From positions 1-64,000 of the forward strand of contig BLSF01000106.1 in NCBI GenBank assembly GCA_012862575.1: a stretch of DNA of 64,000 nucleotides. Reading direction: 5' to 3'. Source of the DNA: Parietichytrium sp. I65-24A (Eukaryota; Sar; Bigyra; Thraustochytrida; Thraustochytriidae). Under the pieces are notes generated by a model. The model saw only the letters and a list, made by a program, of their open reading frames with translations. It made no database searches and was not told the origin of the DNA. Below are positions 3,371-29,100 of this stretch, piece by piece (the stretch's first letter is position 1; each line of letters starts with the position of its first letter). A program made the position numbers and the translations under genes.

Positions 3371-5691
3371 ATGCCTGTTGATGCGGGTGTAGAAGAAAGC
3401 GTGGAGCGGGAGAGTACCTACAGTGATGAGTTTGACCTCAATGACTCGGAAGAGGAGTCAGACAATGAGCAGATCAGCGGTGAAAAGACTGGACGAGGCA
3501 GGGGCCGTGCACCTGTTAGCGGTGACCCTCCAAGACCATCGGTAGAAGGGATGGAACCTGATGAGGCTGAAAAGGCAATGCAGACGTGGAAGGCGCAGAA
3601 GAGGGTTGCTGCTTCACGACGATACCGTGCCAAAGTGAAGCAGCTCAAATCAACAGTCGGCGAACCATCGGATGCTGATATGGAGCTCACAAAGCTCGTA
3701 ACTTTGCGGAAGAAGAATGGGAAACTATACAGAGATTGGCTGGCTGTGGGGAAGACGTATCGCTCTAAACAGGTACTCCAGCACAGGATGCGTGCAGCTG
3801 CTGAGGCGCTGAATTTGACAGTGATATTTCCGGAAAACACGACGACCTCGCTCATGGTTGAACCCAGAGCAGAGTGCGGAGTTGAACCAGGCGCATTCCG
3901 AGTGGCCGCTCGTTTCCGGGCGAAGGACCGTTGCTGGTTGATTGTCGAGTCGTACATCGAAGACCAGATTAGGACCAATCAACGTCCAGAATCAGGTGAG
4001 CGAAAGTGCGCCTACCCGGAGACTACTCTGGCAAGGCACATCCGAGAGGCGGTGCGGGCTAAACCTGGGCTTCAACCGGACGAAATTGTCTCGCTCTTGA
4101 AGGATTACGTGGCCTTCCCTAATGAGCTTCGACCGACAGTGTCCAATATCAGGAGTGCGGCATGTTCGGCGATCCGGCCGAAAACGTGCAACTCCTGCCT
4201 CGGCTCAAGGTAGAGATGGAGATTCGTGGCCATGTTTTGGAGTACAACACCATCAACGGGAAAGAAATGAAACAAGTCGTTCTCTCCGTCGCCAAATCCG
4301 AGCATGAGCAGCTGGGGCAGAAGGCGAGGCTGGTAGACGCAGCTCAACGAACACAGGACCAAAGCGCTGCGATGCAGCCTTGGGGCCCCATCGCCAAAGA
4401 CCGATGGACTGACAAGCATAAAGACCTCATGGATGAGCTTGAGACGACCTCGAAGAATTTTGTCGAGAGCGTCTTTGTCGCGTTCACAGACGGGCTTCAG
4501 ACATACCACAATCTGCTACGTCTATTCAACGCGGACGCTGCGCATGGCAAGATTGCCGGGAAGAACTACACAATCTTTACGGTGGTTGGCTTCAACTCCA
4601 ATTTGGACATCGTCCCTCTGTGCTACGCATTCATCGTGGGAAACGAGTCCTATGATACCTGGAAACGAGTCTTCAGATTTTTGGAACGCTTCTTCCCCAA
4701 CATCGCAAGTGCAGACGGAGTCACATTTAGCACGGGTCAACAGAAAGGACTCGTGAAGGCTCTCAATGAAGTCCTCCCGAATGCAAAACATATGGTGTGT
4801 TTCTATCATCGTTCCGAAAATGTGGCTCGTCATGGGAAAAAGGCCAAGGAAGTGTTAAAGCAGCTTGTGTTTGCGCCGACCACGGATGCTGTCGCTGCCG
4901 TTCGAGCTGGCGCAGAGTACATGGGTCTGCCGTCCAACGTAAAAGCAGCCATCGACAAGATCCCGGACAATGAGCAGGTTCTCTTCCTTGCAAACCAAAG
5001 CGGGGCGACAACCTATGGAAGGTCAAGTTCACAAGGAGTAGAAAGTCAGAACAACGCTATTGCCAAAGCAAGGTGCATGGACCTCGTGTCGAGTATCCTC
5101 GTGCTTGCGGATATGCAGTTGCGAGGATTCCGGGAGAACTATGCCAAAGCTCACCGCGACAATCCGATGAACATCACCCCAAACGCAGCGAGAACATTTG
5201 GTAATCTGATGCTGTCTGGCAATTTAGTGCATGTGGCTGAAGAGTCGAACGCGAACCAATCCACCTTCTTCGTGAATCATGATAACGGACAGCACAAAGT
5301 GGTTTTGAGGCACGACCATGCCAACCAAGCACATGAGCAGGACGACCAAGAAGATATGGAGACCTGCTGTTTTGGCACCTGCTCCTGCGGGATCCCGCAG
5401 CGAGATGCCTTCCCTTGCAACCATATGCTCACAGTCGTGCGTCTCGTGGCTCGGCGCGAGAAAGATATCGTTCCTCTGGAGTTCCGTGAGAGCCGATGGC
5501 GCTCACAGTATCCAGTGGACCTCATTATGCAGGCACCAACAATGGCCGACTTGAACGCCAACGCACTTGCGAAAGACGCGAGTCTTGCTGAGCCGATCAC
5601 AGCACCAACCAAAGCTGGCCGACCGAGTACCAAACGCCACAAGTCAGCACTCGAAAAGTGCATCAAGCGCCATCGCGCGAACCCTCAATAA
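3371..5691 (+). mobile_element. MULE (Mutator-like) transposase region
   Basis: Two overlapping frames, 3371-4213 (280 codons) and 4162-5691 (509 codons), read as one MULE transposase whose frame changes between about 4150 and 4213. The first part has an acidic leader, a basic bZIP-like segment (AASRRYRAKVKQLK, about 3607-3648) and a FAR1/MULE-type N-terminal region. The second part has the DDE core: FNADAAHGK (first Asp at 4534-4536), a QQKGLVKALNEVLPNAKH block (4738-4791), a C-x-x-x-H block, and GVESQNN (Glu at 5041-5043). It ends with a SWIM zinc finger, CSC...CNH (about 5380-5424). The second catalytic Asp expected before QKGL is not visible (STGQQKGL). With the frame change this suggests an inactive copy, unless the frame shift is programmed or spliced. 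No terminal inverted repeats or target duplications were identified. Confidence 0.88.
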
Positions 5692-5853: not shown

Positions 5854-8800
5854 TTAATTAAAAAACTGATTAACCGCTCTTATGAATCTTTGCGAGGTCG
5901 AGCTCGAGTCGAGAGTGTCCGTGTCAGTTTGAGCCTTCAATCTCTCTAGCGCGAGCTTTCCATACTTTTGCACATCTGAACTCTCTGGGTGCATTTTCAT
6001 GGCCTCGAGGATTCGAGCGCCGGAATGGTGCGTTGTATCCATTAATCTGATTCTATTTGCATCATTCATAGCGAGGTTTCCAAGCGCTTCGCATGCTGGT
6101 TCTTGTACCCATGTATAATCGAGATGCCTCTCCATGGCCGCGACGATCCGCATGCCGGCATCGTGCAAGGCATCCATCAATTTAATCCTATTCTCCTCAT
6201 TTAAAGCGAGGTTCGCAAGCGCTTTGCATCCATATTTTTGTGTATCGTCGTCATTCAGGTGCCTTTTCATGGCCTCGAGGATTCGGACGCCGGCATTGTG
6301 CTCTGCATCCATTAATCTGATTTTGTTTTCATCATTCTCAGAGAGTACCCCAAGCGCTTTGCATCCATAATTTTGCACCCATGTATAGTTCAGATGCTTT
6401 TCCATGGCCGCGACGATTCGCATGCCAGCATTGTGTGTTGCGTCCATCAATTTGATTCTGTTTTCATCATTCGAGGCGAGGCACACAAGCGCATTGCAAG
6501 CATTTTCTTGCACATTTACATTACCCACATGCCTTGCCATTGCTGAGACGATGTGCATGCCGGCATTATGTGCTGCATCCATCAATTTTACTTTGTTTTC
6601 ATCGTTCAAGGCGAGGCACGCAAGTGCTCCACATGCCCGCTCTTGCACGCCTATATGGTTCGTATGGTTTTGCATGGCTGCGATGATTTGCACGCCAGCA
6701 TTGTGTGTTGCATTCATCAATGTTTTTTTATTTTCGGATTCTTCACCGAGGCTTTCAAGCGCCCTACATGCCTGTTCTTGCACGCCTACATAATTCAAGT
6801 GGTTTTGCATGGCCGTGACGATCCGCATGCCGGCATTGTGCACTGTATCCATCAATGTATTTTGATTCTCGGAATTCACAGCAAGATTTTGAAGCGCTCT
6901 GCATGCCACTTCTTGCATATTGGCGTTTTCCAAGTGCGTTTCCATGGCCGCGACAATTCGCGTGCCGGCACCTTGGTTCATCAGCTCTCTTTTGTCGTCA
7001 TAAGAAGCCTTCTCGATGAGGTTGCTCAAAACTTCACATCCCTTCAACTGAATGTTAACGTTGCCTTGATGTTCTTCCATCAAGAACAAAATCCCTGATG
7101 GCGAAATGACGCCCCGAAGCATGTTCTCGCAAAAGTCGGCTTTTCGTAGATGGTTTGGTGCAAAGAGACTAAGGCTTTTGCTCGGTCTACAGTGAAGAGC
7201 ACTTAAACCACCCGAAACGAAACCTCTCGCGTCATCAAACGCTTTGTTGTCGAGCTGTGTAGTCGCCTTTTCATTCTTGCCACTATTTTCGGACTGCTCA
7301 TTCCGATCTCCACGCAACTCCAGGAGCGCATCCTTCGCAGAATACACTGCCTGAACCTTTTCTTCAAGCGCTTGCCTCGCCTGAGCAGCTGACTCGGTTT
7401 CCTGGAGGTTGGTGCACTTCTTGGCGGCTTTCAGGATCTCCTCGCGAAATCGCGGCTGGGAGAGTGTGTGCTGGAGGACGATCTTCCCAGCCTCCTTCTT
7501 CAGGGCCATGGCAACTTCACTTGAATTCACCCGGTCCGAATCAGTCGTCAATGACTTGGTGACAAGCTCTGAGAACCTTTCTCTCCATACTTTGGCAGTT
7601 AGAGTTTTCTCCCGTTGCATAAAGGTATCTATAGCTGATTCAATGGTCTCGTTCAGCCTTGCAAAGCGGCGAATGTTCAAAGGCAAACCGGATGATTCGA
7701 CCACATGTTTCAAGAATTGCAAGCGGATGGCGGCCCATGTAGAGTTGATTACCCGAGCTGTTTCCTGTTCGTCCATTCTGCCGGTGATCTCCCATGACAT
7801 TTCCATGCGCTTAATCAGTGGCAGATCAAAAATTTCCGCTCGTCCAGCGAAGAGATCCTCCTTCTTCAGCTCGACCTTTTGATCAAATTCACTGAGCCAT
7901 ACACTTGTCGGTACACTGTGTAATTTATCAAGCCCTTGCACTATTTCTTGATGCACAGCTTCGGCCGACACGCAGTCTGGCCGGGTACCGAGGTCCCAGA
8001 CCTTGGTGAAGATACCTTGGAGCTCGACTTGTGCACGGCTGAGCTCACCACTTACCCACGTCTCGCGCATGTACTGCGTGAGCATCTCGTTGCAAGATCC
8101 TAGCAAGCCGATCAGTCCATGTCGAGTTTCATCAAATTCGACACCATGCTGCTGACACTTGTCCAGCAGAACTTGACGCTCACGGGTAATTGAGTGTGTA
8201 AGAGAACGAGTATCAGAACCCCCACCGCGATTTACTAGCGGGATAATGGATGTGATGTTTATATCCTCCGGGACATCACCGCCTTGCATGTTGATCCGGT
8301 TAAACAAATCGCGGTCTCCACCAGGCTCATCCACCATAGTCAACGCCACAACCACTGGATTCCCCGCTTCCAGAAGGAATGGCCAGATGCCATTACTTCG
8401 GATTCGACGCGCAGTGCCAGACACCACAGCCAGCACCAGTGTATGAGGGACCTTGAGCATTCTCCGCGTCAGCTCCTCAGTGTCTCGCTTAGTATTTGCC
8501 GGTGCACTGACGATTCCTGGTAGATCGACAAGGTCGATGGTTGGGACGGACGGCGCGCAGATCTCCACCTGCACCTCGTGGTCGATGATCACATTTTTGC
8601 CATCGTCGTCCGGGTGTTGTTGTCTGATAAAATCCTGGATGATGGTGGATACTTTTGTGGCAAAGGGCTCGTCCATTTGATCACCCGTCTCGCAGATGTA
8701 CGGCTCGGACTCTTGGACGATCGAGTTGGTCTCGGTGTTCTTCAACCGAATGGTGACTTTGTTCTGGTGTTTGTTGCATCGTAGCATAAGTCGGATCGGC

Positions 8801-9339
8801 AACCGCGTGCAAAACTCGGAGTCGCGTGGGAACACATTCCGCATGGCAATGCGTTCAAGGGTGCTGGATTTTCCTTCGCTCTCCATGCCACAAACGACAA
8901 TTTGCGGCAGTTGCAGAGAAAAGTCGCCACGAACTTTATAGACGGCGTTCAGCAGGCGGCCGTACGGAGCGTCTTTACTGAAGAGGATTTCTGCTAGCCC
9001 TCCGTGTCTTTGCCTTCCTTCAAGTCTTAACGTATTCGACCCATCATCTTCTAAAGCGGCGCTCGACGACGACGAACCGGATGAGCTCGATCTGCTGCGA
9101 CCGGATGCAAGCTCCAGAGCAAGCCTGTACCCATTCCTGCGAGCTTCAGTGCGAAGAGTCTCATAAGCTTCGCGGATGCGCTGACGATCGTTCTCATCGT
9201 ACGCGCGTCGTTCAGCCACTTGAAAGGCATTGGTGACGGCGGTGTCATCGATCTGAGGGCAAACATCTTCCAAGCGCAACAACTCAAACGCGGTGTGCTC
9301 GACGCGGACCCACTCCGACTGGCTATCGCTATGGCTCAT
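5854..9339 (-). CDS. Dynamin-family GTPase with C-terminal ARM-like repeats
   Basis: 1161 residues from the ATG at 9339; the open frame extends further upstream but only through a microsatellite with no better ATG. Residues ~17-75 resemble a degenerate J domain (AFELLRLED ... IREAYETLRTEARR) but lack HPD. The dynamin G domain follows: G1 GMESEGKSST (~150), G2 Thr in CTRLPIRL, G3 DLPG, G4 TMVD in place of TKxD, and an NRGGGSD G5-like loop. Helical stalk-like sequence occupies ~420-720. Residues ~735-1120 are nine ARM-like repeats of 45 residues, each with a VQExACxALxxL helix and a NDENxxxLMDAxHNAG turn. Dynamins self-assemble on membranes and remodel them using GTP; ARM repeats usually bind proteins, so targeting by a partner is a reasonable inference. 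No PH or transmembrane segment is seen. Its stop codon is only 163 bp from the end of the MULE. Confidence 0.88.
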   Translation of the reverse strand: MSHSDSQSEWVRVEHTAFELLRLEDVCPQIDDTAVTNAFQVAERRAYDENDRQRIREAYETLRTEARRNGYRLALELASGRSRSSSSGSSSSSAALEDDGSNTLRLEGRQRHGGLAEILFSKDAPYGRLLNAVYKVRGDFSLQLPQIVVCGMESEGKSSTLERIAMRNVFPRDSEFCTRLPIRLMLRCNKHQNKVTIRLKNTETNSIVQESEPYICETGDQMDEPFATKVSTIIQDFIRQQHPDDDGKNVIIDHEVQVEICAPSVPTIDLVDLPGIVSAPANTKRDTEELTRRMLKVPHTLVLAVVSGTARRIRSNGIWPFLLEAGNPVVVALTMVDEPGGDRDLFNRINMQGGDVPEDINITSIIPLVNRGGGSDTRSLTHSITRERQVLLDKCQQHGVEFDETRHGLIGLLGSCNEMLTQYMRETWVSGELSRAQVELQGIFTKVWDLGTRPDCVSAEAVHQEIVQGLDKLHSVPTSVWLSEFDQKVELKKEDLFAGRAEIFDLPLIKRMEMSWEITGRMDEQETARVINSTWAAIRLQFLKHVVESSGLPLNIRRFARLNETIESAIDTFMQREKTLTAKVWRERFSELVTKSLTTDSDRVNSSEVAMALKKEAGKIVLQHTLSQPRFREEILKAAKKCTNLQETESAAQARQALEEKVQAVYSAKDALLELRGDRNEQSENSGKNEKATTQLDNKAFDDARGFVSGGLSALHCRPSKSLSLFAPNHLRKADFCENMLRGVISPSGILFLMEEHQGNVNIQLKGCEVLSNLIEKASYDDKRELMNQGAGTRIVAAMETHLENANMQEVACRALQNLAVNSENQNTLMDTVHNAGMRIVTAMQNHLNYVGVQEQACRALESLGEESENKKTLMNATHNAGVQIIAAMQNHTNHIGVQERACGALACLALNDENKVKLMDAAHNAGMHIVSAMARHVGNVNVQENACNALVCLASNDENRIKLMDATHNAGMRIVAAMEKHLNYTWVQNYGCKALGVLSENDENKIRLMDAEHNAGVRILEAMKRHLNDDDTQKYGCKALANLALNEENRIKLMDALHDAGMRIVAAMERHLDYTWVQEPACEALGNLAMNDANRIRLMDTTHHSGARILEAMKMHPESSDVQKYGKLALERLKAQTDTDTLDSSSTSQRFIRAVNQFFN
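5990..7130 (-). repeat. 135-bp in-frame tandem repeats encoding ARM-like units
   Basis: The 3' third of the dynamin-like gene is built from about nine 135-bp units (45 codons). Words such as GCATGCCGGCATTGTG and CCATGGCCGCGACGAT recur at this spacing on the plus strand. The middle units (about 6100-6900) are the most alike at the DNA level, and the first and last are more diverged. This is the usual pattern when repeats expand and homogenise by unequal exchange. No frame disruption occurs in the array. Confidence 0.85.
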
Positions 9340-11234
9340 CTTCCGGTCTCGTCGCTCGTTCCTCTTCTCACCCTCCTTCGCTCGTTCGCTCGTTTGTTTG
9401 TTTGTTTGTTTGTTTTCGTTCTGTTCTGTTCTGTTACCTTCTTTGCGTTCGAGGACTGCCACATTGATCGAGTTAGAACAAGAACAAACCAGAGATCTTT
9501 TCCTTTTTTTAATCTTTTGTATAGTTAATTAATCAATAAAATAAAGCCAAAGATGTTTCTTACTATCTGTAACTCTGTGCGCGCGGCGCCGGGACAAGCG
9601 TATGCATGCATCGGGTTGTATGCCCTTACTACACGATTAACTAAAACCATAAGGTCAAGAGATCCGTTTGGAAGTTTGAGGCCACGGTCACGTTCTCTGG
9701 TGTCTGGACAGGTTACACTTTCAAACCAACGCATCAAACCACGACAGCTCAAATTGCTCGACGAATGAGAGGCGAGCTTATTGCACACGCCTTCACCGTC
9801 GTCTAACTGGAGCTATCCACATGTGTGCATTCATGCGCGAACCTGACTCACAGCGAATTGCGGATCGGTGAATGCGAAATAGACAAAATTGCTTCGCTCT
9901 ACACAAATGCGAAGCTCAATCGCGAGCACTTCGCGAAAGTAAGTCGATCAGGTCCCGCAAGACACACATTGCACGACTCACGTCGAGAGACGTGTCGCCG
10001 CTGATTATTAGTTTTTGGGTTGGTTTGTACCACGCGAAGATAGGCAAGTTGAGTTTCGCAGACAGATCTTTGTACCTCTCGAAAGTATCTTTGACACATC
10101 TCTCATGACTGACCAAGCCCAACGAATCTATTGCCCCACTTTCTCATTCAAGCCTCCTCCTTGGCGAACTGTACTGAAGATCTTCGCAATTGATTGAAGA
10201 AACGTGCATTACACATTCCTGTGCAGCCTTCGTTCACGTCATTAAGGCATCGCAGTTTGAGTGAAAGGAGTTTCGAGCAAGTTGATGTCCAATGCTACAA
10301 AGATTTCGGAACGGATTCTTCGCCTGGTTCTGGTCCATTGGAGCTTTACTTGGCGTTGCGCTTGGTGCTGCTTGGTGCTGCTTGGTGTTGGGATTGCTCT
10401 ACAAAACCTTCTCCAGGCAAATCTGCAAATAGATCGGAACGCAAGACTCGAGCGCCAAACATTCGAGTGAGTTATTGCAGGATTTTCAGCATTGAGTTGT
10501 TCTCACAGTCAATTCCCAGCAGTCATTTCGCGCAAGTGTGCCTGCCAATAAGTTTCTCTCCGACATGGTGATTGATGCACGGTGAACGACCAAACGAAAC
10601 GAACTTCACATTCTCAACATTCAATACTTTTCAATATTTTAGTCTTGAAATTTTTAGATAGGACTTTCTTACCCACCTAGGGGAAAAATCTCGCATAGCA
10701 TTCAGCCTATCTATCCATTAGCAGAGAGGCAAACCCTCTTTTCAAAAATTTTCCCACACATTTGTAGTGAGAGTCGTGAAAAAAGTGACCCTCTCCTCAC
10801 ATCCACACTGTGCATCGCAATTCTGCGAGTAACACTGCGGCCCACGGGCACACCCGCCGGGCTAGCTGCTCGTTACGATACCATACCATACTCCTAAGCT
10901 TCTTAGCTTCCTCCGTCCCTCCCTCACAAGAACCCACAAGAGGAAGCGGGGGGTCCGCGACCAAACTGGCTGTGTGTGGTCCATGGCCTGCTACCTCGCA
11001 ACTGTGTTGAGCACTGGGACACATTGGGACACATTGGGACACACTGACAGCGAGGACACTTTGACGGCGGAGCTTGTTCGTTGTTCGTTGTTCTGAGCAG
11101 CATCTTGATCACTTGATCCTCTGGCAGATCGCTTTTCTCTCTCTCTCTCTCTCTCACACAAATCCCACAAACATTCACAAACATTTACAAACATTTACAA
11201 ACGCTGCTTGGAAAGTTTGGAAAGTTTGTAAAGA
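9340..11234. other. Divergent intergenic region, dynamin-like / CEP162-like
   Basis: No gene is supported in these 1.9 kb. Simple repeats: (GTTT)n at 9391-9416 in the dynamin 5' leader; GGGACACATT repeated three times at 11017-11045; (CT)n at 11136-11154; and ACAAACATTY repeated four times at 11158-11201, immediately upstream of the CEP162-like ATG. Small open frames at 9872-10122 and 10194-10571 have no recognisable product and unremarkable composition. Confidence 0.6.
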
Positions 11235-14200
11235 ATGGAAGAGAGCTTTGAAAAGTACCTCTCCGATGAGGACAGTCTCTTCTCTCGTCGCGGCGCTACG
11301 AGATACTCTAGCGAGTACGCCGCGGACGCGTATGATTTCGACCTGACGGACAGCAAATCGTCGCAAAAGAAGAAGGACAAGGAGAAGAAGAAGGACAAGA
11401 AGAAGGACAAGGAGCGGAAATTGCAGGAGAAGATGGACAAATTGCGCGAAAAGGAAGCTCGTGCACGCACATTGGGACTGTCCAGAGAAGAACGGATGCA
11501 GGAATTGCTCGGCCAACTATCTGCAGAGACAAAGCAGCAGCGAATTGCCAAGGAGATGCAGGAGAAGCAGCTGCAAAAGGAACTTCAGGAAAAGGAGGAG
11601 CTCGCAGCGAAGAAGAATGCCAAAGAGGTTGAGAATCTTCGAGTGGATGCCCAAGACGATGAGGAGGACGAGGAAATGCATGGAGGAATGATGTCGCTTG
11701 CTTCGGACTCGCTGGAAATGTCCTCCGCTGATTTCATGGTTGGCGGCTACGCGAAGAAGATGCATGGGAAAGTTGACCAAGTTGCGCTGGGGTCGTCTGC
11801 CAATCACCAGTCATTTGCTATCACCGATGCTGTAGAGGAGCTCGGAGAGGAGAGGCCTTCTTCCGGGGATGACGAAGACGGAGAGCTGAGCGCAGTGAAC
11901 AAGACCTACGAGAGCGAGTTTGACGGAGAAGAGGACGAGGGAGAACACGTCTCGCATGTTAGGAGGGGGTTTGACAGCGACAAAAACGACTCGATCAAAA
12001 CACTGCAAAGAAAACTATCTTCAAGGCTCGGGAAGGATTTTAATATCGGGGACCTGTCTGACCTGATGAAAGCGCATGCTGACGTGGACGAGAACTACGA
12101 TGACGATGATCCCGGGGAGGAAGAGGAAGAGGAAGAGGAAGAGGAAGAGGAAGTGGAACAATACGAGGATGATGATGGCCACAGCGACGACGGCGATTTT
12201 GCAAGGCATGCAGTGAACGCTCACCAAAGGTCATCTGGATCCAGGCAGTACTCTGACGATTACGAGGAGAACGAAGAGGAATACGGTGATGAAGATAATA
12301 GCTATGGCGACGATCAACTTCTGGCACGTGACTTGCGTGATGCCAGTGAAATCTATGCTTCATTCGAAGCTGATGGTAGAGCGCTGGTCGGGGACTCGCC
12401 TCGAGGGAGCCATCGTTCGGATGGCTCCGAGACGGATGCATACCGAGACGATCGCTATGATGAGCAACATGACTCTCGCTCGCCAAATCTGAGCCCAAGA
12501 GATGGAGAAACTCAAGGTGCTCTGGAAGTGGGAACAAGGGTGAGGGCCAAACTCTTTGATTGGGCGGATTATTTCGAGGGAGTGGTAATTCGGATGATGG
12601 ACGGCGAAGCAGATGTACTTTTTGACGACGGAGAGAGGGTTGATGGAGTGGATCCGACTGATCTTGTGCCCATTGACGGAGTTGATGGCAACGAAGGCGG
12701 TGAAGACGGAGAGGCTGGGAACTCATCCTCTTCCGATGATTCACCCGAAGACTCCAAAGATCTCCCGGAAAACAAGCCCTCTAAAGAATTAGAGCGAATA
12801 TCAGCTATGAGCGCGAACGCTGACGAGGAAGAGCAAGAGCAAGATGAGCAAACCGACCCACGAGCGGCTAGTGCTGTCAGTATGGAGAGTCGTGGGCCAC
12901 GAACACCTGAAACTTCTGACGACGAGGAGGAAACGGCGCTTTCGGTTGCAAAAACATCCAGTGCAGGTTTGAAGAAGGGGAGCTCTGTGGAGAATAGAGA
13001 GCCAGTGGTTCCAAACGATAACGACGACAACGACGAGGATAATGATGATGGCGATGATAATGATAATGATGAACCTCCTCTGCCAGAGCAAACCAAGGAA
13101 GACGCTTTGAGAGGGCAGTTTTGGCAGGGCATGAATAAAGTTTCGACATCCGAGTCGCCTCGCGCTGTTTCACGCCATGGTGGTGAGCACTTTTCTAATG
13201 CTGCTGCTGCTGAACAAGTTCGAAACTCAGTAAACACAGTAGGCTCTTCCTCCCCGCCTCCTCCACCGCCTTCGAGTGCCCAGAAAACTTACTCCTTGGC
13301 GGGAAAATCGCGACTGATAAAGAAGACTGCAGCTCTTTTTGCATCGCCTCCACCACCCCCTCCACCATCTTCTTCCAACAATAGCCGGACACAGCGCGAG
13401 CATACCCCGCGCTCTCAGTCAGAGGACCTCCATATAAGCGGGTCGCAGATGCACCTTTCTCAGCGAAGTGACAAACACACCCCGGGTAGTGCTGCCGCGG
13501 AGCTTGCCAGGCTCAGGCTACGCGGGACCGCTCTTGAGGAAGATCTGAAGGCAGCAAATGCCCAAAATGACTCTGCAAAGAGACTCATCAGCGAACTTGA
13601 ACAAAAAGTTGAGTCTCAAGAGGCAGAGATCTTCCGTCTCAACGGCGAATTACAGGAGCTGCAAAGCACCAACGCAGTGCGGGGCAGTATTCGAAAAGTC
13701 CTCGTGCAGGACCAAGATGGAGAGGGAGAGGCAATACCTAGAGAGGAATTGGCGCGAATTGAAAAGGAAATGGCCGAGCAAGACCGACTTCTGGCTGGCT
13801 ATCAAAAAGAGAACGAGAAACTTGTTGATAGGCTCAGGGAAGCAGAAAAACGAGCTGACCAAGTTCGTGACACAATGTACAAAGCTAACATGCGCCTTGG
13901 CAAAGAGCTGAATAGCCAAGAGCCACAGACTCAAGAGAATCAAACCTCGGCGCAGACCCTTCGACGGCAACTCGATGCGGAGCAGGCAGTTCAGGCCTTA
14001 GAAGAGGAGATCAAACAACTTCACGAGCAGCACGCAGCGAGGGAAGCTGCACTACAGCAGGAGATTCAAGGCCTTCGCGGCGATCAAACTGCTACTGTGG
14101 AAAGTGATAAAAAAGACGATGAAAGCAGCTTGGAGGAGCTCGTCTCACAATTGCGCAGAGACCTAGCGCAAGCCCGATTTGAACACCTTACCGAAGCTAA

Positions 14201-15782
14201 AGCGCTCAAAAGTAAGCTTTCCTGGTACGTGGAAAACCAGCAATTGCTGAGTGAAAGCGAAAACGTCATCAAGGACTTGCGCGCGCAGTTGGCTCAGCGA
14301 GATATGGATGGCCAGAGCATGAGCGACGGCAAGTCTCGTGGTGGCGCTCGTGGATCTGATGCGAAGAAGGTCAAGGCCCTACAGCACCAGGTGCAAGAAC
14401 TCGAAGAGGCGCTCCGAAAGAGACATCCAAACTCCATTGCAAATCTGATCCGCGCGGCTGGGCCGACGGATACAGAGATCCAGTCCCGCCGCGAGTTGAG
14501 GAAAAGGGTGGAAGAGCTAGAGGCCGAGCTTGCGTCACGCGAAAAGTCATTCAGCAACCGGGTACGTACTATCAGGCAAGAACACGAACGGGTGAAGATG
14601 CGGTACGAGAGGCTACTAGAAGAAGCTCGGGGGACGACTCCAGATGATGAATTACATGATCGCGGAGCAGGCGGAGGTTTTGTTGATAGAGAAGGCAGAG
14701 TCGTGGCTCTAGAACAGGAGCTCGCCCGTGTGCGAGAATTCTACCGCAAAAAAATTGAGGACATATCGAAAAAGTCCAGCACAGCTTTGCGGACCGCAAA
14801 ACGAGATGGAGCACACCCTTTGAAAGACGTTGGTTCCACTCAGCGTGACGCTGACAAACTGAGAGCTGCAAAAGTTGCTTTGGAAGCTCGTGTGGAAGAG
14901 CTTGAAATGCAGCTTGAGCATGCTGGAGCGTCGGACGCGAGGCGCAAGGAAGAACGGATGGAGAAGAAGGTACATAACCTGGAGATAGAGAATAAAAGAC
15001 TCCAAGAAACAATCGGACAACTCAAAGGTATGCTCGCGTCTCCGCAGTTCTCCGAAGACTCTGTGTTTCTCGAGGTGGATCAACCCGATAGACATCCTCA
15101 AGCTCCGTACGTGCCAGGACAACTTGAGCCAAGATCGCCAGAAGAGGGATTCCATCATGAAAGCGATAACGAAGACAGTTTCAGGCTGGACGCAGGTCAT
15201 TTGATTCAGGACGGCGAAGGGCAGTCTCCATTTGATGGTCGCGCTTCGGCCTACACACCGCCCTCAGGATCCCCGGAGTCGCAACAAGCAGAGAAACAAC
15301 TGAAAGCTGAGCTGGAACGCGCCGAGTCCGATCGGGATAGAGCCAATGCACGCATTTCCAAGCTCGAGAACGAGCTGAGGCTCATAAATTCTCGCTGGGA
15401 AAAGGCGCTCGAACGAAGCGAGGCTGTTGTTACGCGACTTCACAGCACCAATCAGGAGCTTGAGGCGCAGCTTTTGGAGGCGAAGCGCGTGCTTAATCAG
15501 CCCACCAACCCTACTATGCTGCAGCAGCAAGCCATCGCTCGCAGATTGTCAGAAATGGAAGCGAAGATGCAATCAAGGGAACGAGAGCTGGAGCTTATCG
15601 TGCAGCAAGTTGAGCATCGCGCAGAGCTGGAGATGCAGAGGATGCAATCTAATTTTGACACCGTAATCGCTGGAAAAAACCAGGAACTCTTCAAGTTTCG
15701 CATTGAGCTAGACTCTCTCATGGAAACACTCAAGCTTTTGCAGAGTGGGTCCTCGGCACTGGGAATCGCAACCTTGCCTTGA
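11235..15782 (+). CDS. CEP162: CEP162-like centriole/axoneme coiled-coil protein
   Basis: 1515 residues from the ATG at 11235. Order: a lysine-rich coiled segment (~35-130); long acidic disordered sequence with a poly-Glu run (12119-12154); a Tudor-like module (~433-480: RVRAKLFDWADYFEG ... DVLFDDGERVDG ... DLVPI); more disorder with two proline tracts (13250-13270 and 13345-13370); then almost continuous coiled coil from ~750 to the end. In the coiled coil, KLSWYVENQQLL (about 14215-14250) and RKRHPNSIANLIRAAG (about 14412-14460) closely resemble the segments KxxWYAENQELL and RRHPNSLxALIxAA that I recall from animal CEP162/QN1. CEP162 sits at distal centrioles, binds axonemal microtubules and promotes transition-zone assembly in ciliated cells. 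The Tudor-like insert is not part of the animal protein as I know it. The identification rests on two motifs plus overall architecture. Confidence 0.7.
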   Translation: MEESFEKYLSDEDSLFSRRGATRYSSEYAADAYDFDLTDSKSSQKKKDKEKKKDKKKDKERKLQEKMDKLREKEARARTLGLSREERMQELLGQLSAETKQQRIAKEMQEKQLQKELQEKEELAAKKNAKEVENLRVDAQDDEEDEEMHGGMMSLASDSLEMSSADFMVGGYAKKMHGKVDQVALGSSANHQSFAITDAVEELGEERPSSGDDEDGELSAVNKTYESEFDGEEDEGEHVSHVRRGFDSDKNDSIKTLQRKLSSRLGKDFNIGDLSDLMKAHADVDENYDDDDPGEEEEEEEEEEEEVEQYEDDDGHSDDGDFARHAVNAHQRSSGSRQYSDDYEENEEEYGDEDNSYGDDQLLARDLRDASEIYASFEADGRALVGDSPRGSHRSDGSETDAYRDDRYDEQHDSRSPNLSPRDGETQGALEVGTRVRAKLFDWADYFEGVVIRMMDGEADVLFDDGERVDGVDPTDLVPIDGVDGNEGGEDGEAGNSSSSDDSPEDSKDLPENKPSKELERISAMSANADEEEQEQDEQTDPRAASAVSMESRGPRTPETSDDEEETALSVAKTSSAGLKKGSSVENREPVVPNDNDDNDEDNDDGDDNDNDEPPLPEQTKEDALRGQFWQGMNKVSTSESPRAVSRHGGEHFSNAAAAEQVRNSVNTVGSSSPPPPPPSSAQKTYSLAGKSRLIKKTAALFASPPPPPPPSSSNNSRTQREHTPRSQSEDLHISGSQMHLSQRSDKHTPGSAAAELARLRLRGTALEEDLKAANAQNDSAKRLISELEQKVESQEAEIFRLNGELQELQSTNAVRGSIRKVLVQDQDGEGEAIPREELARIEKEMAEQDRLLAGYQKENEKLVDRLREAEKRADQVRDTMYKANMRLGKELNSQEPQTQENQTSAQTLRRQLDAEQAVQALEEEIKQLHEQHAAREAALQQEIQGLRGDQTATVESDKKDDESSLEELVSQLRRDLAQARFEHLTEAKALKSKLSWYVENQQLLSESENVIKDLRAQLAQRDMDGQSMSDGKSRGGARGSDAKKVKALQHQVQELEEALRKRHPNSIANLIRAAGPTDTEIQSRRELRKRVEELEAELASREKSFSNRVRTIRQEHERVKMRYERLLEEARGTTPDDELHDRGAGGGFVDREGRVVALEQELARVREFYRKKIEDISKKSSTALRTAKRDGAHPLKDVGSTQRDADKLRAAKVALEARVEELEMQLEHAGASDARRKEERMEKKVHNLEIENKRLQETIGQLKGMLASPQFSEDSVFLEVDQPDRHPQAPYVPGQLEPRSPEEGFHHESDNEDSFRLDAGHLIQDGEGQSPFDGRASAYTPPSGSPESQQAEKQLKAELERAESDRDRANARISKLENELRLINSRWEKALERSEAVVTRLHSTNQELEAQLLEAKRVLNQPTNPTMLQQQAIARRLSEMEAKMQSRERELELIVQQVEHRAELEMQRMQSNFDTVIAGKNQELFKFRIELDSLMETLKLLQSGSSALGIATLP

Positions 15783-20000: not shown

Positions 20001-20114
20001 ACGTCCGTTGTCGCCGGCATTGTCACTGTCGCCCGGAGCGCTGGAACTTGACGTTGAGTTGTCGCGAGTAGCGTCAGGCTTTCTTCATTTGTGCAACAAA
20101 GGTCGGCGAGGAGA
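17085..20114. other. 3-kb divergent intergenic region
   Basis: No convincing gene. It contains a copy of the recurring dyad, GTACTCACTGTCAGTAC (18342-18358); a GTTCAGAATTCAGAT motif (19336-19350); a run of TTTTG repeats (19414-19439); GA repeats near 19480; and an ACTG tetranucleotide run (19755-19775). Several short frames (17796-17999, 18374-18613, 19804-20457) lack recognisable content; the last overlaps the start of the giant gene in another frame. Confidence 0.6.
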
Positions 20115-23100
20115 ATGGAAGGTCGCGGCCAGAGAATACTTGTTGCATGGCTGCTGTGCGCAGCTCTGGCGCGGATCACTGACGCAGCATTCACCCCGCT
20201 GGTGTGCCCGACAAATTGGGCTGCTTACGGAAGCAGATGCTGGTATTACAGTGGAGACGCCTCGTCCACATGGAAGACCTGGTACGAAGCGGATGTGGTG
20301 TGTCAGTCCATGGGTGGGCGGCTCGCGTCAGTCCACACCACCGATGAGAACGACTATGCGTACAGCAAGTGTAAAGACAACTCTGCAGGAAATAGCTGCT
20401 GCGAAAAAGGAGTATGTTGGCTGGGATTCTACCAGGTGCAGGGCCAAAGCGGCGTGAACTTCCAGTGGATCGATGGGACCCCGGCAACCAAGACTTTCTG
20501 GGCGCCAAATGAACCTAACAACGTTGGAAGCAACGGAGAGGACTGCGTCCACAATTGGGATCGACCAGGGTCACCGAAATTGTGGAACGACGAGCCGTGC
20601 TCGAATGTCTACCCATTTTTGTGCACCCAGGACGCCAAGTGCCCAGCGGGAGCGTACCAAAGCCAAGCATACCAAGGCTGGAATAGCGTCAGCGCATCTT
20701 GTGAATATTGCCCTGCTGGCACCTATCGGTCACAGACAGGCGGAATCGGCGTGGAGTCATGCACAGCTTGCCCTGCAGGAAGGATGGGCACCACTGGCGA
20801 GACAAGCACGACATGCTCTCAGGCGTGCCCTGTCGGCTACTATTGCCCGGAGGGCACCAGCGCGGACGCTGCCGTGAACTCGGCTAAGGGCCGTCAAGCC
20901 TGTCCGGCAGGCAAGTACGGCGACGTGACTGGCCTCAAAGCTGCGAGCCAGTGCCAGGCATGTGATCCTGGATACTATTGCTCTGGCAACGGGGAAACCG
21001 TGCCAAATCCGTCCAACCAGCTTTGCAAGGCTGGCAAGTGCGGCTTTACAGAGCAAAAGAACGAGCAGTGCAACCAGGACTGTCCTGCGGGATACTACTG
21101 CCCCACCGGCTCTGCATGTCCTGAGGCGACGCTCTCAAATGGTGGCACACCATCCAATCTCGCAAAGCCGTGCGGCGGACCCAACTACTGGTGCCAAGCC
21201 GGAGTTTCGCAACCCTCAAGCGTCGACGCAGGCTACTACAGCACGGGAGGATCATCCGAAACGACAAGAACAGACCAGTCCGTCTGCGAGCAAGGATACT
21301 ACTGCGTGGGCGGCATCCGCTCGCCATGCCCTGGAGGCACATACGTATCGAAGACAGGTTCCTCTAGTCAAGCAAGCTGCTTAAAGTGCGAACAAGGATT
21401 TCTTTGTCTCAATGGTATTCCAAACACGGGGCCTCGGGCGAGTAACTGCTACGATGAGACCGTATTGACCTCCTTGGGGGGAGGCTATACAAGTGTCATC
21501 GGAAAACCGGAAATGGTCTTCTGTCCGGCAGGGTCGAGCGTGCCAACGATTGTGCAGACAGGGTTCTACAGCACCCCGACCACCACCTCCTCGAGATACA
21601 ACCGCGTTGCAGAAACAGCTTGCACGCCGAGCCAGGTCTGTGTGAATGGTGTCGCATCAGCGCTCTTGTTTTGGCAGTCAGGGACCGAATGTGCCACGGG
21701 TTCTTTGAGTCACACAGTGAAAGAAATGTCAACCGCGGGCACCATGAAGAGCATTCCTGCCAACCTTCACTCCAATGTCAATGCAGCAGATTACAAGATC
21801 TCCTACGCACTCGACGGTTTCGACTTTTACGACCCGACCTTGACTGATTGCTTGCCTACCACACCAGAGAAAAACCAGGGCATCTTTTCGTTTTTGGATG
21901 GGAACCTCGCCTTAACTCGGTCAGACTTGGACTATGAAGTATGCTTGCCAGTCCTGGACGTACGATACAGTCTCACCGTGACTGCTTCGGCGAAGCTCGC
22001 CAGTGACGATACGTTGATTTCCACTATAACTTGCGCAGTTACGGTAATTGTGGACGACAACAACGATAAGCCACAGTTTTACGACTATGACGAGGGCGAT
22101 GGGGTGACAAGCAAGGTGTATCACAGACAAATTCTTGAAAAAGTCGACAGGAACATCCCGGTCTCGGTTTGTGACGCGACTGGAGCAAGCTTCGGCTGCC
22201 CCAGCACCACACTTGCTCAAGAAGGCCAACCAAATTTGTTGGTCAAAGACCAAGACGACGGCTCTGTCATCAGGTACTACTTTGCCGACGAAGATGAGTC
22301 GCGCCCATTTAAAATCGATCCTTGCACTGGACTGGTCTCTGCTCGGGTATCGCAAGGCATCAGTTACAATGTCCAGAAGCTGTACACTTACACGGTTCGA
22401 GTAGAAGACGATGGAAATGGCGGAAGATACACCCCAATGTACGACGAGGCTACCTTGGTTATTCATGTGATGGATATAAACGATGACCCGGTTCTGCAGG
22501 ACGATGCTGGCACACTGACGATTGCAGAAAACCAGCCCGAAGGCACCCCAACCAATTACATGGTCAACGCGACAGACGAAGATGTCGGGGACACTTTGAC
22601 GTTTCAGCTCGTGAAGAACGATGGTGATGCATTTAAAATGGTCGACAATGTGCTCATGACGAGTCGAATTGGTTCTGAGACTATTGACTACGAGTCGTCA
22701 AAGAAGGAGTATACTGTTGAGATCGAAGTTCAGGATTCCCGTGGCGGGATGGACTCCAAGGCATACACAATCAAGGTCGTCAATATGAATGACGCGCCGG
22801 TGTTCACTGGTAGAGACGTTTTTTACGTCAAGGAAAATGCAGCAGGCTCAAGTGTCTGTGCCGACCCTGAAGCAACCTGTTCGAGTGGTGCTGGAAAGGT
22901 TCAGACGACAGATGCTGACAAAGACGCTCCAGTTTACTCGCTTGTGCATGATCACTTTGAGATCGACGAGACTACTGGAGAAATCAAGACCAAGGCCGGA
23001 GCCAGCGGGTCTCTTAATTTTGAAGATGAAGCCATTTCTCTGCCGGGGGGCTCTGGTAGAGGCTACCAGGTGCAAGTCACGGCAACCTCGCTCGGAATCC

Positions 23101-26100
23101 CGGCGGACATGAACGCAAAGGCTACGACGACCACTATTACCATTTATGTTGTGGACGTGAACGAGATCCCGGTGATTGACTCTGTGAGCACCTTCCGGGT
23201 TCTCGAGTCCTGGCCTGTTGGGTACGTAATTCCGGGAGAGATCGTCGCCTCGGATCCAGACAATGCTGACCAGGTTCTTCTCGGCGAAATCGCTCCAGTG
23301 CAGACGCTCTCGTACTCGAACGACAATTCGAACGAGTTCTTTGCTGTACAAACCAATGCGGTCACAGGGCGTGGAGAGATCAAAGTCATCAAAGCCCTTG
23401 ATTTTGAAACGTCTACTGGCAGTGTCTCTGTTGGTATTAAAGTAGAGGACAACGGTGGGCCAACTCGCAAGTCTGTGACTACCTCTGTTCAAATCGAAAT
23501 CGTCGATGTGAACGAGTCCCCGGCTTTCTCAACCTCGCGGCAAGTGATTAGCGCCCCGGAGAACACACAATTTCAGAGCTCTGAAATCGAGGCTATTGAA
23601 AAGGACACAGCTGATCAGCTCACGTACTCGATTGTTGGCGGGAACGGATCCCCGTTCTTCACGGTGGAGGCAACTACGGGCAACAAGTTCAAGGTTGTTC
23701 AACGCACCACTTTCGAAGGCACAACGACGCCATTTGTGCTCAACTACGAAATGAGCTCCAAAGAGTGGACCGTCAACATTCAAGCAAAGGACCAGGGCCC
23801 ATCATCAAAAATTGCGCAAGCTTGCTCCGCTTCAGACTCGCTTTCTTGCGGCGGAGGCGCAACTTGTGACGGGGGGCGGTGTTACGAGAAGTGCTACGAC
23901 ACCGTGTCTCGACAGGCATCATCGATCAGCCACACAAACTTATTCACGTGCGACTACAATGGCGAGCAAAAGGTTGCCAAGATCAACGGCGTGGACACAG
24001 AGTTCTTCGCCGAGACCGCCGAAATGTCTCTCGTGGTGTCTGTAACTGACGTTAACGATGCCCCAGTCATCCTGGACTGCCCGTTGTCCTTGACGGTTTC
24101 CAAGAACATCGCCAGCCAAGACCAGCAAATCACCAAGCCTGGCGTTTTGGACTCGCAGACGTACGATGAGGACGAAGTGAACGGCGCGACGTATGTCTAT
24201 CCGTACACCTTTTCCCTCACCGGGGGTGTACCCTCTTTCTTGACGCTTGAAACTGCGGGAAACTACATCAAGTACTTGGGATCGCAAAGTGCCTCCTTGG
24301 GTGCAATTGGTGACAGCTACAGCTTCACGGTGACAGTGACTGACTCGCAGAACATGGCCTCGACTTGTGCGGTGGAGCTGAATGTCATCTATGAAAACAC
24401 TCCTCCAAGCCTTGATGACCTGGAAACCTCCCCCATCCCAGAAAATACTCTCCCCTCCAACGGGGCAACCGAGATTGTTGTCCTTGATCAGCTCAAAGAC
24501 AGGGTGGAAGATGGAGACGACAGTGAGGTGATCACCTTCACGACATCTTCCAACCCGTTTTTCAATGTGGACTCACAAAGTGGTAAGATCACTGTGGGCA
24601 GCTCGTCAGTCAACTATGAGAGCCTCTACCCGACGTTCACGTACAAGCTGATCGTGCAGGTGAAGGATAAAGCCGGGGCGGTGGACGTGGCAGAGATCAC
24701 AATTCCAATTTCAGACGAGAATGAGGCCCCTTACTTTACCACCATTCCCACTGTCACAATTGAAGAGAATAACGCTGCGAATGCAGAGATTATTCCAGCT
24801 CTTCTAAACGTCTACGCCTTTGACCCAGATCAGTACGCTACAGAGACCTCGTGGAAGACGCTGACATTTTCACTTGTTGGGTGCGAGACTTCCGACTGTC
24901 CGTTCTCCGTGAACAGCGCTACAGGCCGGGTTGTGATCACGTCGTCGACAAATTACGAGGCCACCGTCAACTCGTGGACTTTGACGGTTCGAGCTTCGGA
25001 CGGTGCTGGTCTCTCAGCGACAACGGAAATCGTGGTCAAAGTCACTGACGTCAACGAACCTCCAAAATTCAAGGATGGGGCAAACAACAGTGTGGACGTG
25101 TATGAAGGCGACTTGGGCGCAAATTCAAAGCTGTTTAACATGCTCAAGGTAGTCACTGATGAGGACGCGATTGATGCTCCAGATAGTCTTGTGTACACCA
25201 TCACAGACGGCAACGATGATGGATGGTTCAAGTTTCAGGACGGATATTTGCTCAGCAGTGAGAACTTCGCCCTCGACTACGAAACAAAACAGCAGCACAC
25301 CCTCACCATCAAGGTAGTCGACTCTGCTTTAAACGAGGCGACAGGTCAGGTGGTAGTTAATGTCTTAAACGTCAACGACGTGGAAATCTCAAGTGTCACA
25401 GCATCCTCGGTCTTGAGTTGCTCTGGAGGATCGCAGGTGACCATCAGGGGTAGCAACTTTGGACTAAAGTCAGCATCTTCCTGGTCGGCAACCACCGCAA
25501 CCGTGACTTACACGAGCACCATCACTGGTGTTGTGTACGCTTGCACAAATGTGCAGCGCGTTGACAACACTCAGATCAGCTGTTCAGCAGCAGCTGGCGT
25601 TGGTTCGGACTTCAGCTGGGAGGTTGCCTTTACAGTCTCGGGCTACGACATCTCTGGAGACAAGTCTCCGGCATTCTCTACTCCTTCGCTTTCTTACTCC
25701 ACACCGGTCCTTCAATCAGTGACTGGCGCAAGTTTGACTCCAACCAAGGGCGGGACCGCTGTCACACTCAGTGGCTCCTGCATTGGCTCACCAAGCGACT
25801 TTCCGGGCGGATTCCAAGTGTATGCGCCAAAGAACTTTGTTCGCTACTGCAATGTGCTTGGAACGTGCTGGACACCATCCTGTACGCTCACAGCCTCCAA
25901 TGCTCTTTCGTGCACCACTGCCGCAGGCGTCGGCTCTGGTTTCCGTTGGGTCGTGTCGGTATTGAGCGTCACCAGCGAGGCCGTGGAAGCTGGAGGCTAC
26001 GCGCCTCCCGAAGTCACGGCACTGAGTTTTACTAGTTTTGCGTCAACAGGAACTTTCTCAACCCCGCTTGTCATCACTGGAGCAAACTTCGGGGCTCTGA

Positions 26101-29100
26101 ATGCCGTGCCCGCGTCGATTTACGCCTACTTTGAGTCTTCCTACGACAGCTCCGTTACACGCGAATACAGTCTGAAGAGCTGTGTGGTCTCCAAAGCTTT
26201 TGAAGAAATCACATGCCAGAGCATCGCTGCAGGTATTGGCAAAGATATGCCAGTCTTCGTGACATTCGGTGGCCAACAAAACTCGGCTCAAAATACGATT
26301 CTTGTGAGCTATGCTGCGCCGCAGATCTTGTCATTCTCAGGCGAAGGCGTACGGGCCGCCTCGACCGCGGGCGGCCAACGCGTCATCGTCAAGGGAGCGG
26401 GCCTTGGCCCCGTTTGTGGCAAAGTGTCGGAGACTGGAGATGAGAGTGTGGTTTGTGACCTGGTGCACACCACTTATACGCGCGGATCGAGAAGGGCCAC
26501 TGACAACTCGCCGATTGTCTACAGCTCCAGCTGTGCTGTGACTGTTGTGGACAACCAACTTGACTGCATCACTGCTCCGGGAACCGGGGAAGGGCACGTA
26601 TGGACTTTTGATATTGCGGGGCATGTTATCGTGTTTCGCGGCACCACGACCTCCTATGAGGTCCCCACAGTCGGTGGTTACGAAGGCCCGGGAAGCGTAG
26701 ACGCAGACACAGTGGGAGGGCAAGAAGTCATCATCAAGGGGAGCAACTTTGGTCCCACGAATGGCGCAGCTGTTGTGGCTTACTACGGATCGGAAGAGAG
26801 CCCCACCGAGTTTAAGGCCAAGGATTGCAAGGTGACCTTGGCCAACGAACGTGTCTCGTGTGTGACGCGAGAGGGCGCTGGAGATGAACTCAAGTGGACT
26901 CTCCTGGTCGATGAGCAAGAGTCTAAGGCCGAGGTCACCGACTATGGCGAGCCTGTCATCTACTCTTTCACTGGGCAAAATGGTGCAGTAATTTCCAGCC
27001 TGCACAATGACGGAGAAAGTTCCATCGTGTTAAACGGATGGAATTTTGGCCCAGCAAACTCATTTCCTGCATTTCTGGAAGAGGTCACATATGGCCCGGC
27101 CAGTAACCCGGGGGCATATTCACCTGATTGCTACGTCGAAGGGCACGATCGGATCGCGTGTGTGACTGTTCCTGGGATTGGCTCCCCTCTCAAGTGGAGA
27201 GTACAGGTGAAGGGCCAGGTCTCCAGCCTGAGCACGGCAACCACTGGCTACGTATTGCCATCGCTAAGTTCCGTGTCCACACTGACCGGAATCACTGACG
27301 GTGGGTACAAAATCAGGTTGTATGGCAACGGGCTCGCTGTATGCGATACTCTTTCATCTGTCATTGTTAAATTCGGAACTCAAGATCTTGCGTATGCTTC
27401 GTACTACGACAGCGAGTTTTCCACAACCGTTCCCGTGGATCCCAGCACGGCGTGTCCGCTTTCCAAAACAGGTGAACGTAGTCTAGATTTTATCGTGCCG
27501 GAAATGACAGGAGATGCAGCCCAGACGATTGGAGTTGAGTTGCGTTCGAATCGCTTCAGCGAGGTGTACAAAACCAACTTGTTCCAGTTCAGATTCGCGG
27601 ATCCGGTCTTGGAGAGCGTTTATGCAGAGCCAGTTGGCGATGCGGCAGCTGGAGAGACGCAGACCTGCGTGGGGGACTATCGCGTTACTTTGCGCGGTAG
27701 GAACTTTTGCAAGTCAAGCGATTGCTGCTCCGTCTTCCTCAATGGCAGGACAGACAACTACATCCTTGAAGACCACTCGCATCGTGTGATCACTGTGTGC
27801 ACTTCGAAGGTTGGTCTCATCTACGTTAAGTGTGGGGACCGCCTCACTGATACGCTCAGCTTCAACGCGGAGAGCCCGTTCATATTTCAAACCACAACCA
27901 GCAGTGGAAAGGCGCTCAGCGAACTGACATACCCCACCAAGTCCACCGGATCAGATCTGATCTTCATTTGGGGGTTGTACTTTGGTGCAAGCTCACCAAA
28001 AGTCTCCATTGGGGATCGCGCCGCGACTGTATCTGAGCACCTTTCCCTTGCCTGTGATGACCCTTCCATCCCAGCCCACAATTTTGGGAGCCTGGCAAGT
28101 TTGGATGTCACGTGTTGGAAAACGACAGTCGTCGTTCCTGACGGGCAAGGCACGGACAACGCCATCATTGTCAAAGCAGGGGCCAGCGACCAGTCTTCTC
28201 TTGCAAACAGTGCGTTTGAATTTGTGCACTACAACAAGCCAGTTATCTCGTCTGTGACAGGATCATTTCCGGTGCCAACGACTGGAAATACTGATGTGAT
28301 CATCAAAGGAGAAGACTTTGGGCTTTCTGGCGAGGTATTTTTTGTGGTCCTCAACTCCAATGATGTTCTCGGCAACACGTGGACCCAGGTCGGGTTTGCC
28401 AACTGCTCCGAGTATTCTCACCAACAACTCACGTGCACCATCCCGCCCGGAGAGGGCAAAGACCTCGCATTTTTGGTCGTTGTAGGAAACCAGGACACCT
28501 CTTCGCAGAATGGCAACTTCAAGTTTGCATACTCGCCACCGGTTGTTAACGAGGTCAAGTACAATACCGGTGGGCGCACGATTGGAGGCGATCTAATCAC
28601 TCTGGTGGGACAAAACTTTGGGCGTTCTTTTGCCGCGAATTGCACGTCATTGTTCTCAACCACATGCACACCGATCCGCCCAAGCGTCATGCTAGACTCC
28701 CTCAGCTGCGAGCTCATATCTAACACACAGACCGAGATTACTTGCAAAACCCCAGAGGGCGAAGGCAAAGGTCTTGAGGTAGTGCTCAACGTGCGAGGCC
28801 AGCAAGTGCTCACCGGTCAGCAATTCGATTACGCAGCTCCAGAAATTGATTACTACACTCCTGTCGACGCGAGTACAAGTGGTCTTGATGAGGACGGCCT
28901 GAGGGAAATTATGTCAATCTTTGGAGACAACTTTGGAGTCAATCGGTTGACGGTCTCTTTTATCATGGACGAGACCTCCTTCGTGGTTGCAGAGCGTTCA
29001 TTGGACGATGGAATTGACACATTCATGACCCAATCAAATCACACTGCTATCTACTTTCCTGTGCCAGAGCTCCGGGGTAAGGACATCACGATTCGTATAG

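Follow-up and report, generated by a model that had tools for sequence, protein, structure and literature searches.

Introduction

Dynamins reach their site of action via PH domains, loops or adaptors. Armadillo (ARM) repeats occur in Vac8, which has no GTPase, and in LRRK2, whose GTPase is a Roc domain. Here we describe a gene of the thraustochytrid Parietichytrium sp. I65-24A that encodes a dynamin GTPase and nine C-terminal ARM repeats, preceded by what appears to be a degenerate J-like domain, an unusual combination in one protein. The gene lies on the minus strand at positions 5854..9339 of a 64,000-nucleotide stretch (GenBank assembly GCA_012862575.1, contig BLSF01000106.1, positions 1 to 64,000), which we call the window. 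We lean, if only slightly, towards reading its product as a single-gene dynamin-related protein in which the ARM solenoid is the target-recognition part.

The likeness to Drp1/Vps1-type dynamins lies in the GTPase domain with its G1-G3 motifs: a sequence search of the Protein Data Bank (PDB) ranks Drp1 first (E 2.1e-14) and Vps1 next (6.7e-13). The window protein differs from these in a G4 motif reading TMVD, a J-like N-terminus, the C-terminal array and a stalk that largely escapes sequence matching, and Pfam scans of the protein and its paralogs detected no PH domain. Vac8 and the ARM domain of LRRK2 are the closest natural arrays of solved structure, and LRRK2 likewise joins ARM repeats to a GTPase. 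Mx-like dynamins are, according to the available text of PMC11789081, dynamin GTPases found across eukaryotic supergroups and often duplicated or lost; Mx chains, however, match the window protein only at 4.2e-5 or weaker, and the word "armadillo" has 0 occurrences in the main text of that paper. Fungal NLRs with highly conserved WD, ANK or TPR repeats share with the window family the joining of an NTPase to a repeat array, and the available text of PMC4986451 describes for them repeats that are alike within arrays, changing repeat number, variable sites on the binding side and different heads on one repeat type. The window family has ARM repeats and a dynamin GTPase instead of NACHT or NB-ARC, neither of which had a Pfam match in the window protein (E<=1) or in six scanned paralogs (E<=5).

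GTPase and ARM array in one reading frame

A minus-strand open reading frame (ORF) at 5854-9462 stays open over 1202 codons, with its first ATG at 9339, giving 1161 residues, and its stop ending at 5854. The plus strand over 5854-9339 offers only a reading frame full of stops. The initial annotation had given these coordinates with an uninterrupted frame, correctly, and the strand is minus. Since the open frames of all six aligned family members have their first Met at a comparable position, the codons upstream of 9339 are probably leader; residue numbers are counted from the Met encoded at 9339. The gene content is eukaryotic, with tubulins in the genome and a mitochondrial carrier and a U3 snoRNP protein within the window. 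The features of the gene are as follows.

5854..9339, minus strand: whole coding frame, ATG to stop, 1161 residues, intron not needed
9112..9294, minus strand: predicted J-like helical domain without HPD, residues ~16-76 (hhalign family profile; AlphaFold2 (AF2) helices; top PDB profile match DnaJ B9)
9010..9102, minus strand: serine-rich linker, residues ~80-110 (sequence; dN/dS, the ratio of nonsynonymous to synonymous substitution rates, up to 0.92)
8167..8952, minus strand: dynamin-type GTPase domain, residues ~130-391 (Dynamin_N; Drp1 chains top in PDB)
8863..8889, minus strand: G1/P-loop GMESEGKSS, residues 151-159 (family alignment)
8806..8808, minus strand: G2 threonine T178 in FCTRLPIRL (aligns with Thr of own-genome dynamins)
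8515..8526, minus strand: G3 DLPG, residues 272-275 (family and own-genome dynamin alignments)
8329..8340, minus strand: G4 TMVD replacing TKxD, residues 334-337 (all six family members; pairs with TKVD)
8227..8232, minus strand: G5-like VNR, N370 and R371 (aligns with RNR of own-genome dynamins)
7270..8169, minus strand: candidate helical stalk- and GED-like region, residues 391-690 (dynamin profile alignment continues to ~445)
5917..7095, minus strand: nine ARM repeats, residues 749-1141, period 45 (repeat hidden Markov model (HMM); Pfam Arm and ARM_LRRK2)

A Pfam scan of the protein returned Dynamin_N (3.3e-19), MMR_HSR1 (2.5e-5), ARM_LRRK2 (2.9e-26) and Arm (2e-6) above curated cut-offs. 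The G1-G3 set noticed in the initial annotation is borne out by the Dynamin_N match, and its motifs, the superfamily's G2 threonine and DLPG included, can be read directly. Judged from these matches, we regard the identity of the GTPase as certain. The profile alignment with four other dynamins of the same genome (P 1.2e-15) starts ahead of the GTPase, extends to about residue 445 and sets TMVD opposite TKVD. A divergent dynamin, C4 (L054:1987-5706, plus strand), combines TMVD with a J-like N-terminus that is split and with a Gln-rich tail, and lacks an ARM array. The superfamily's TKxD is indeed replaced by TMVD, as first annotated; the motif is identical in the six aligned family members, the window protein included, and in C4, and its Asp is retained. 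The G4 lysine is missing in some other dynamin-superfamily members too (GBPs), so TMVD is not taken as excluding membership. The GTPase probably still hydrolyses GTP, because it retains G1, G3, the threonine of G2 and the aspartate of G4 and is more constrained than any other part of the protein. Two further single-frame dynamins of ~820 residues (L077, L078) were found, and the genome has 20 Dynamin_N matches in total.

The nine 45-residue ARM-like repeats of the initial annotation were confirmed by the repeat HMM, with a spacing of 45 seven times and 46 once. As expected of ARM-repeat proteins, defined by tandem repeats of ~42 residues that match Arm profiles, both Arm families score above cut-off.

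A J-like N-terminal module

The N-terminus had been read as a J-domain pattern without HPD. The missing motif is a constant feature, absent from all six aligned N-termini and from the N-terminal part of C4, and profile comparison supports the J-like pattern, but "degenerate J-like" is the better term. A direct DnaJ profile check gave nothing: scanned by itself against Pfam, the window protein had no DnaJ match at E<=1. With hhalign, a profile of the N-termini of six family members aligned to 20 J domains of the same genome with a score of 29.3 (P 3.8e-5, probability 71%) and helices I-III collinear. None of 300 column shuffles reached this score (maximum 19.1), and of 22 segments of 100 residues taken along the protein only two exceeded 19.2, both covering the J-like part wholly or partly. 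The J-domain sequence pattern over helices I-III, which the module has in common with DnaJ/Hsp40 proteins while differing from them in the absence of HPD, is thus found by profile only.

An AF2 model of residues 1-96, built from one sequence, has helices at 9-26, 32-45, 49-69 and 71-79, with a mean predicted local distance difference test score (pLDDT) of 66.6, which is low confidence. There is no J domain among its listed fold matches (31 Foldseek and 42 VIA-align rows), which is weak evidence that the segment is an unrelated helical hairpin rather than a J domain. The unmatched Pfam profile, the absent HPD and an hhalign probability of only 71% point in the same direction. We nevertheless consider a hairpin quite improbable, since the profile score stands well above its shuffles at collinear positions and other proteins agree. 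Paralog C82 alone gives a DnaJ match at E 0.055 in the correct register (the other five proteins of that scan have none at E<=5), and the family profile ranks DnaJ B9 first among 177,635 PDB sequences, at an E of 0.033 that is not significant by itself. In the array-less C4, the J profile scores 22.5 over its helix I part (0/200 shuffles as high, maximum 17.4); a later stretch, separated by an insert, matches the following J columns at 19.9, a score without its own shuffles. From these sequence comparisons we take the module to be a degenerate J-like domain, the resemblance being real but weak. A J domain without HPD should not drive Hsp70, and so this one is not expected to be an Hsp70 co-chaperone.

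A gene family with arrays of different length

Searching the 42.5-Mb genome and reading the ORFs yielded five genes that encode all three parts, J-like domain, GTPase and array, in a single frame: the window gene, C41, C14, C82 and C93. The stops in the genome-search matches of C41 and C82 lie upstream of their open frames. The domain order of the initial annotation therefore recurs in four further single-frame paralogs, which makes it unlikely that the parts are separate genes. A sixth family gene, C79, has the J-like part and the GTPase but has lost the array, of which one out-of-frame remnant of a last repeat remains; C117 holds two partial family copies adjoining a run of N. By the repeat HMM, the complete genes carry 9 (window), 12 (C41), 8 (C14), 18 (C82) and 8 (C93) repeats. 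The pair C14/C82 has a dS of only 0.12-0.17 in the J-like part, GTPase and stalk region, yet differs by 8 vs 18 repeats.

Several paralog pairs were left without a dN/dS value, dS being saturated; in the remainder dN/dS is 0.07-0.19 for the GTPase, 0.08-0.41 for the J-like part, 0.15-0.45 for the stalk region and 0.24-0.52 for the ARM part. The linkers are looser: the serine-rich linker reaches the value listed above, and residues 691-748 give 1.52 for C14/C82 at a dS of only 0.03. The J-like part, GTPase, stalk region and array are kept by purifying selection, the linkers less so.

These values bear on whether the genes are a decaying or selfish repeat expansion, that is, recent duplicates near transposons with no present function. 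The 3' end of the dynamin gene lies 162 bp from the end of a MULE transposase ORF (window 4162-5691, plus strand, E 6e-11), C79 no longer has its array and C117 has only partial copies, all of which would fit decay. We consider it very unlikely all the same, as every pair with a value has a dN/dS well below 1 in the J-like part, GTPase and stalk region, many of them at dS near or above 1, and five genes have intact frames.

ARM arrays on other proteins and variation within repeats

Dynamin-less genes also carry arrays; the survey gives lower bounds and leaves out C160. Five of them, each a single frame with alike repeats (L046, L048, L047, L050, L051), have 40 (C12), 39 (C34), 13 (C10), 10 (C41r) and 12 (C18r) repeats and a C-terminal RING-like Cys/His segment judged by eye. 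Pfam RING is above cut-off in C12 and C10, slightly below it in C18r and without a match at 0.001 in C34, C41r being outside the scan. Three kinase proteins carry an array in one frame (C18k1 with 13 repeats, C18k2 with 11 and C9 with 7), and C98 and C142 have arrays with no head seen. C18k1 and C18k2 are neighbours on C18, and the kinase-array genes (L053, L056, L055) begin with an N-terminal part lacking domain assignment.

Each of the 7 complete window repeats has its closest counterpart outside its own gene in a RING-type array; RING-type repeats make up 99 of the 202 in the comparison set, and repeats are not independent. The corresponding counts are 1.2/11 for C41, 0/6 for C14, 0/16 for C82, 0.8/3 for C93 and 0/6 for C117; in these dynamin genes the nearest repeats are mostly in dynamin or head-less arrays. 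The linker [DN]xxH[ND] occurs in 6 of the 8 window linkers and 8 of the 11 C18r linkers and in 0 of the other 15 genes; the repeat bodies of the window and C18r are not especially alike (mean identity 0.51, vs 0.56 for window and C10r). An old exchange of arrays between classes is the simplest reading, though it is not proven.

Positional entropy over 202 complete repeats of 244 is highest at positions 21, 31, 27 and 24, on one face of helix 3. Mean entropy is 3.27 bits at 21, 24, 27, 28 and 31 vs 1.10 at the remaining 11 helix-3 positions, and 2 of 4368 choices of five positions are as high. Part of this contrast is simply that between exposed and buried residues. In designed ARM proteins the direct binding residues sit in helix 3 (H3), according to the available text of PMC10684580, and that of PMC4756613 describes conserved asparagines on the concave side that bind the peptide main chain.

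The ratio of nonsynonymous to synonymous differences (pN/pS), pooled over 991 close repeat pairs (363 from C34 alone), is 1.23 at the five helix-3 positions vs 0.57 elsewhere. The excess is found in four RING-type arrays, the two C18 kinases, C98 and C142, with little or none in C12, C41, C82 and C14; helix-3 values of the RING-type genes are 1.09-2.08 in four and 0.58 in C12. C117b is the only dynamin array that is clearly higher at the helix-3 positions (0.91 vs 0.35, 10 pairs), and the window array has too few close repeat pairs for a row of its own.

Neighbouring genes and long single-frame ORFs

Elsewhere in the window, a single-frame ORF at 20091-33104 (plus strand) encodes 4337 residues that include C-type lectin, cadherin and IPT/TIG domains, its match to TRP being under cut-off, and an ORF of 1515 residues at 11235-15782 (plus strand) matched no Pfam family at E<=1. 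On another contig, C66:8562-22499 (G000) spans 5583 residues in a single frame with several partial matches to the PfaA model, below the PfaA cut-off.

Proposed function

From this observed architecture we infer the mechanism. The ARM solenoid would bind a protein or peptide via its helix-3 groove, and target binding would concentrate the protein or release inhibition. The GTPase would then dimerise and assemble like other dynamins, spending GTP on constricting, caging or remodelling whichever membrane or assembly is bound; membrane scission or tubulation, as proposed in the initial annotation, would be an outcome of this kind. The J-like domain may serve as a helical interaction or oligomerisation part.

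Several results weigh against this proposal. The five helix-3 positions, which we take to be groove positions in designed ARM proteins, were picked after viewing the entropies, so that their contrast describes rather than tests. The pooled dynamin arrays have a pN/pS of 0.48 at the helix-3 positions vs 0.47 elsewhere (149 pairs) and so do not demonstrate positive (diversifying) selection in the dynamin subfamily, a further difference from the fungal NLRs. The helical stalk of the initial annotation holds at its start, where the alignment reaches ~residue 445, but region 391-690 alone found no dynamin in a PDB profile search and matched the four own-genome dynamins without significance (P 0.022). 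A GED match (E 0.12) appears near the end of the stalk-like region in paralog C79 only. We judge a stalk likely to be present, whereas a GED in the window protein is unproven, and both are mostly unconfirmed beyond the start of the stalk. The full-length AF2 model is unusable (mean pLDDT 40.9), and the missing J domain among the fold matches of the N-terminal model belongs here as well.

The main rival is a housekeeping membrane-traffic dynamin, in which the array would be a fixed Vac8-like adaptor docking a Drp1/Vps1-like enzyme on an organelle, with paralogs for different organelles. It is favoured by the best PDB matches, which are Drp1 and Vps1 in the case of the GTPase and Vac8 in that of the array, by an ARM dN/dS below 1 in all pairs with a value and by the lack of a helix-3 excess in the pooled dynamin arrays. 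A fixed adaptor sits poorly, however, with repeat numbers that differ between the close duplicates C14 and C82, with a window array that does not resemble the arrays of its paralogs and with the loss of the array in C79, and we regard this account as possible but doubtful.

The alike repeats, changing number, variable binding-side sites and exchanged heads shared with fungal NLRs suggest a bolder reading than our preferred one of a dynamin with a target-recognition array. ARM arrays would be modular evolving sensors carried by dynamin GTPases, RING-type proteins and kinases and passing between these classes, and the dynamin branch would be a receptor with a dynamin GTPase in place of a STAND switch, remodelling or caging its bound target, for example an intruder or non-self structure. 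We consider this rather unlikely as it stands.

On our preferred reading of the array as the target-recognition part, the combination looks made to direct a membrane- or assembly-forming enzyme to targets that change. A dynamin whose protein-binding solenoid is built in and fast-changing would owe its targeting to that array itself. The naturally array-less C79 and the 8- and 18-repeat pair C14/C82 permit direct tests. Should the arrays turn out to recognise foreign or variable targets, the family would represent a sensor-switch receptor without a STAND NTPase, linking Mx-type immune dynamins with NLR-type recognition.

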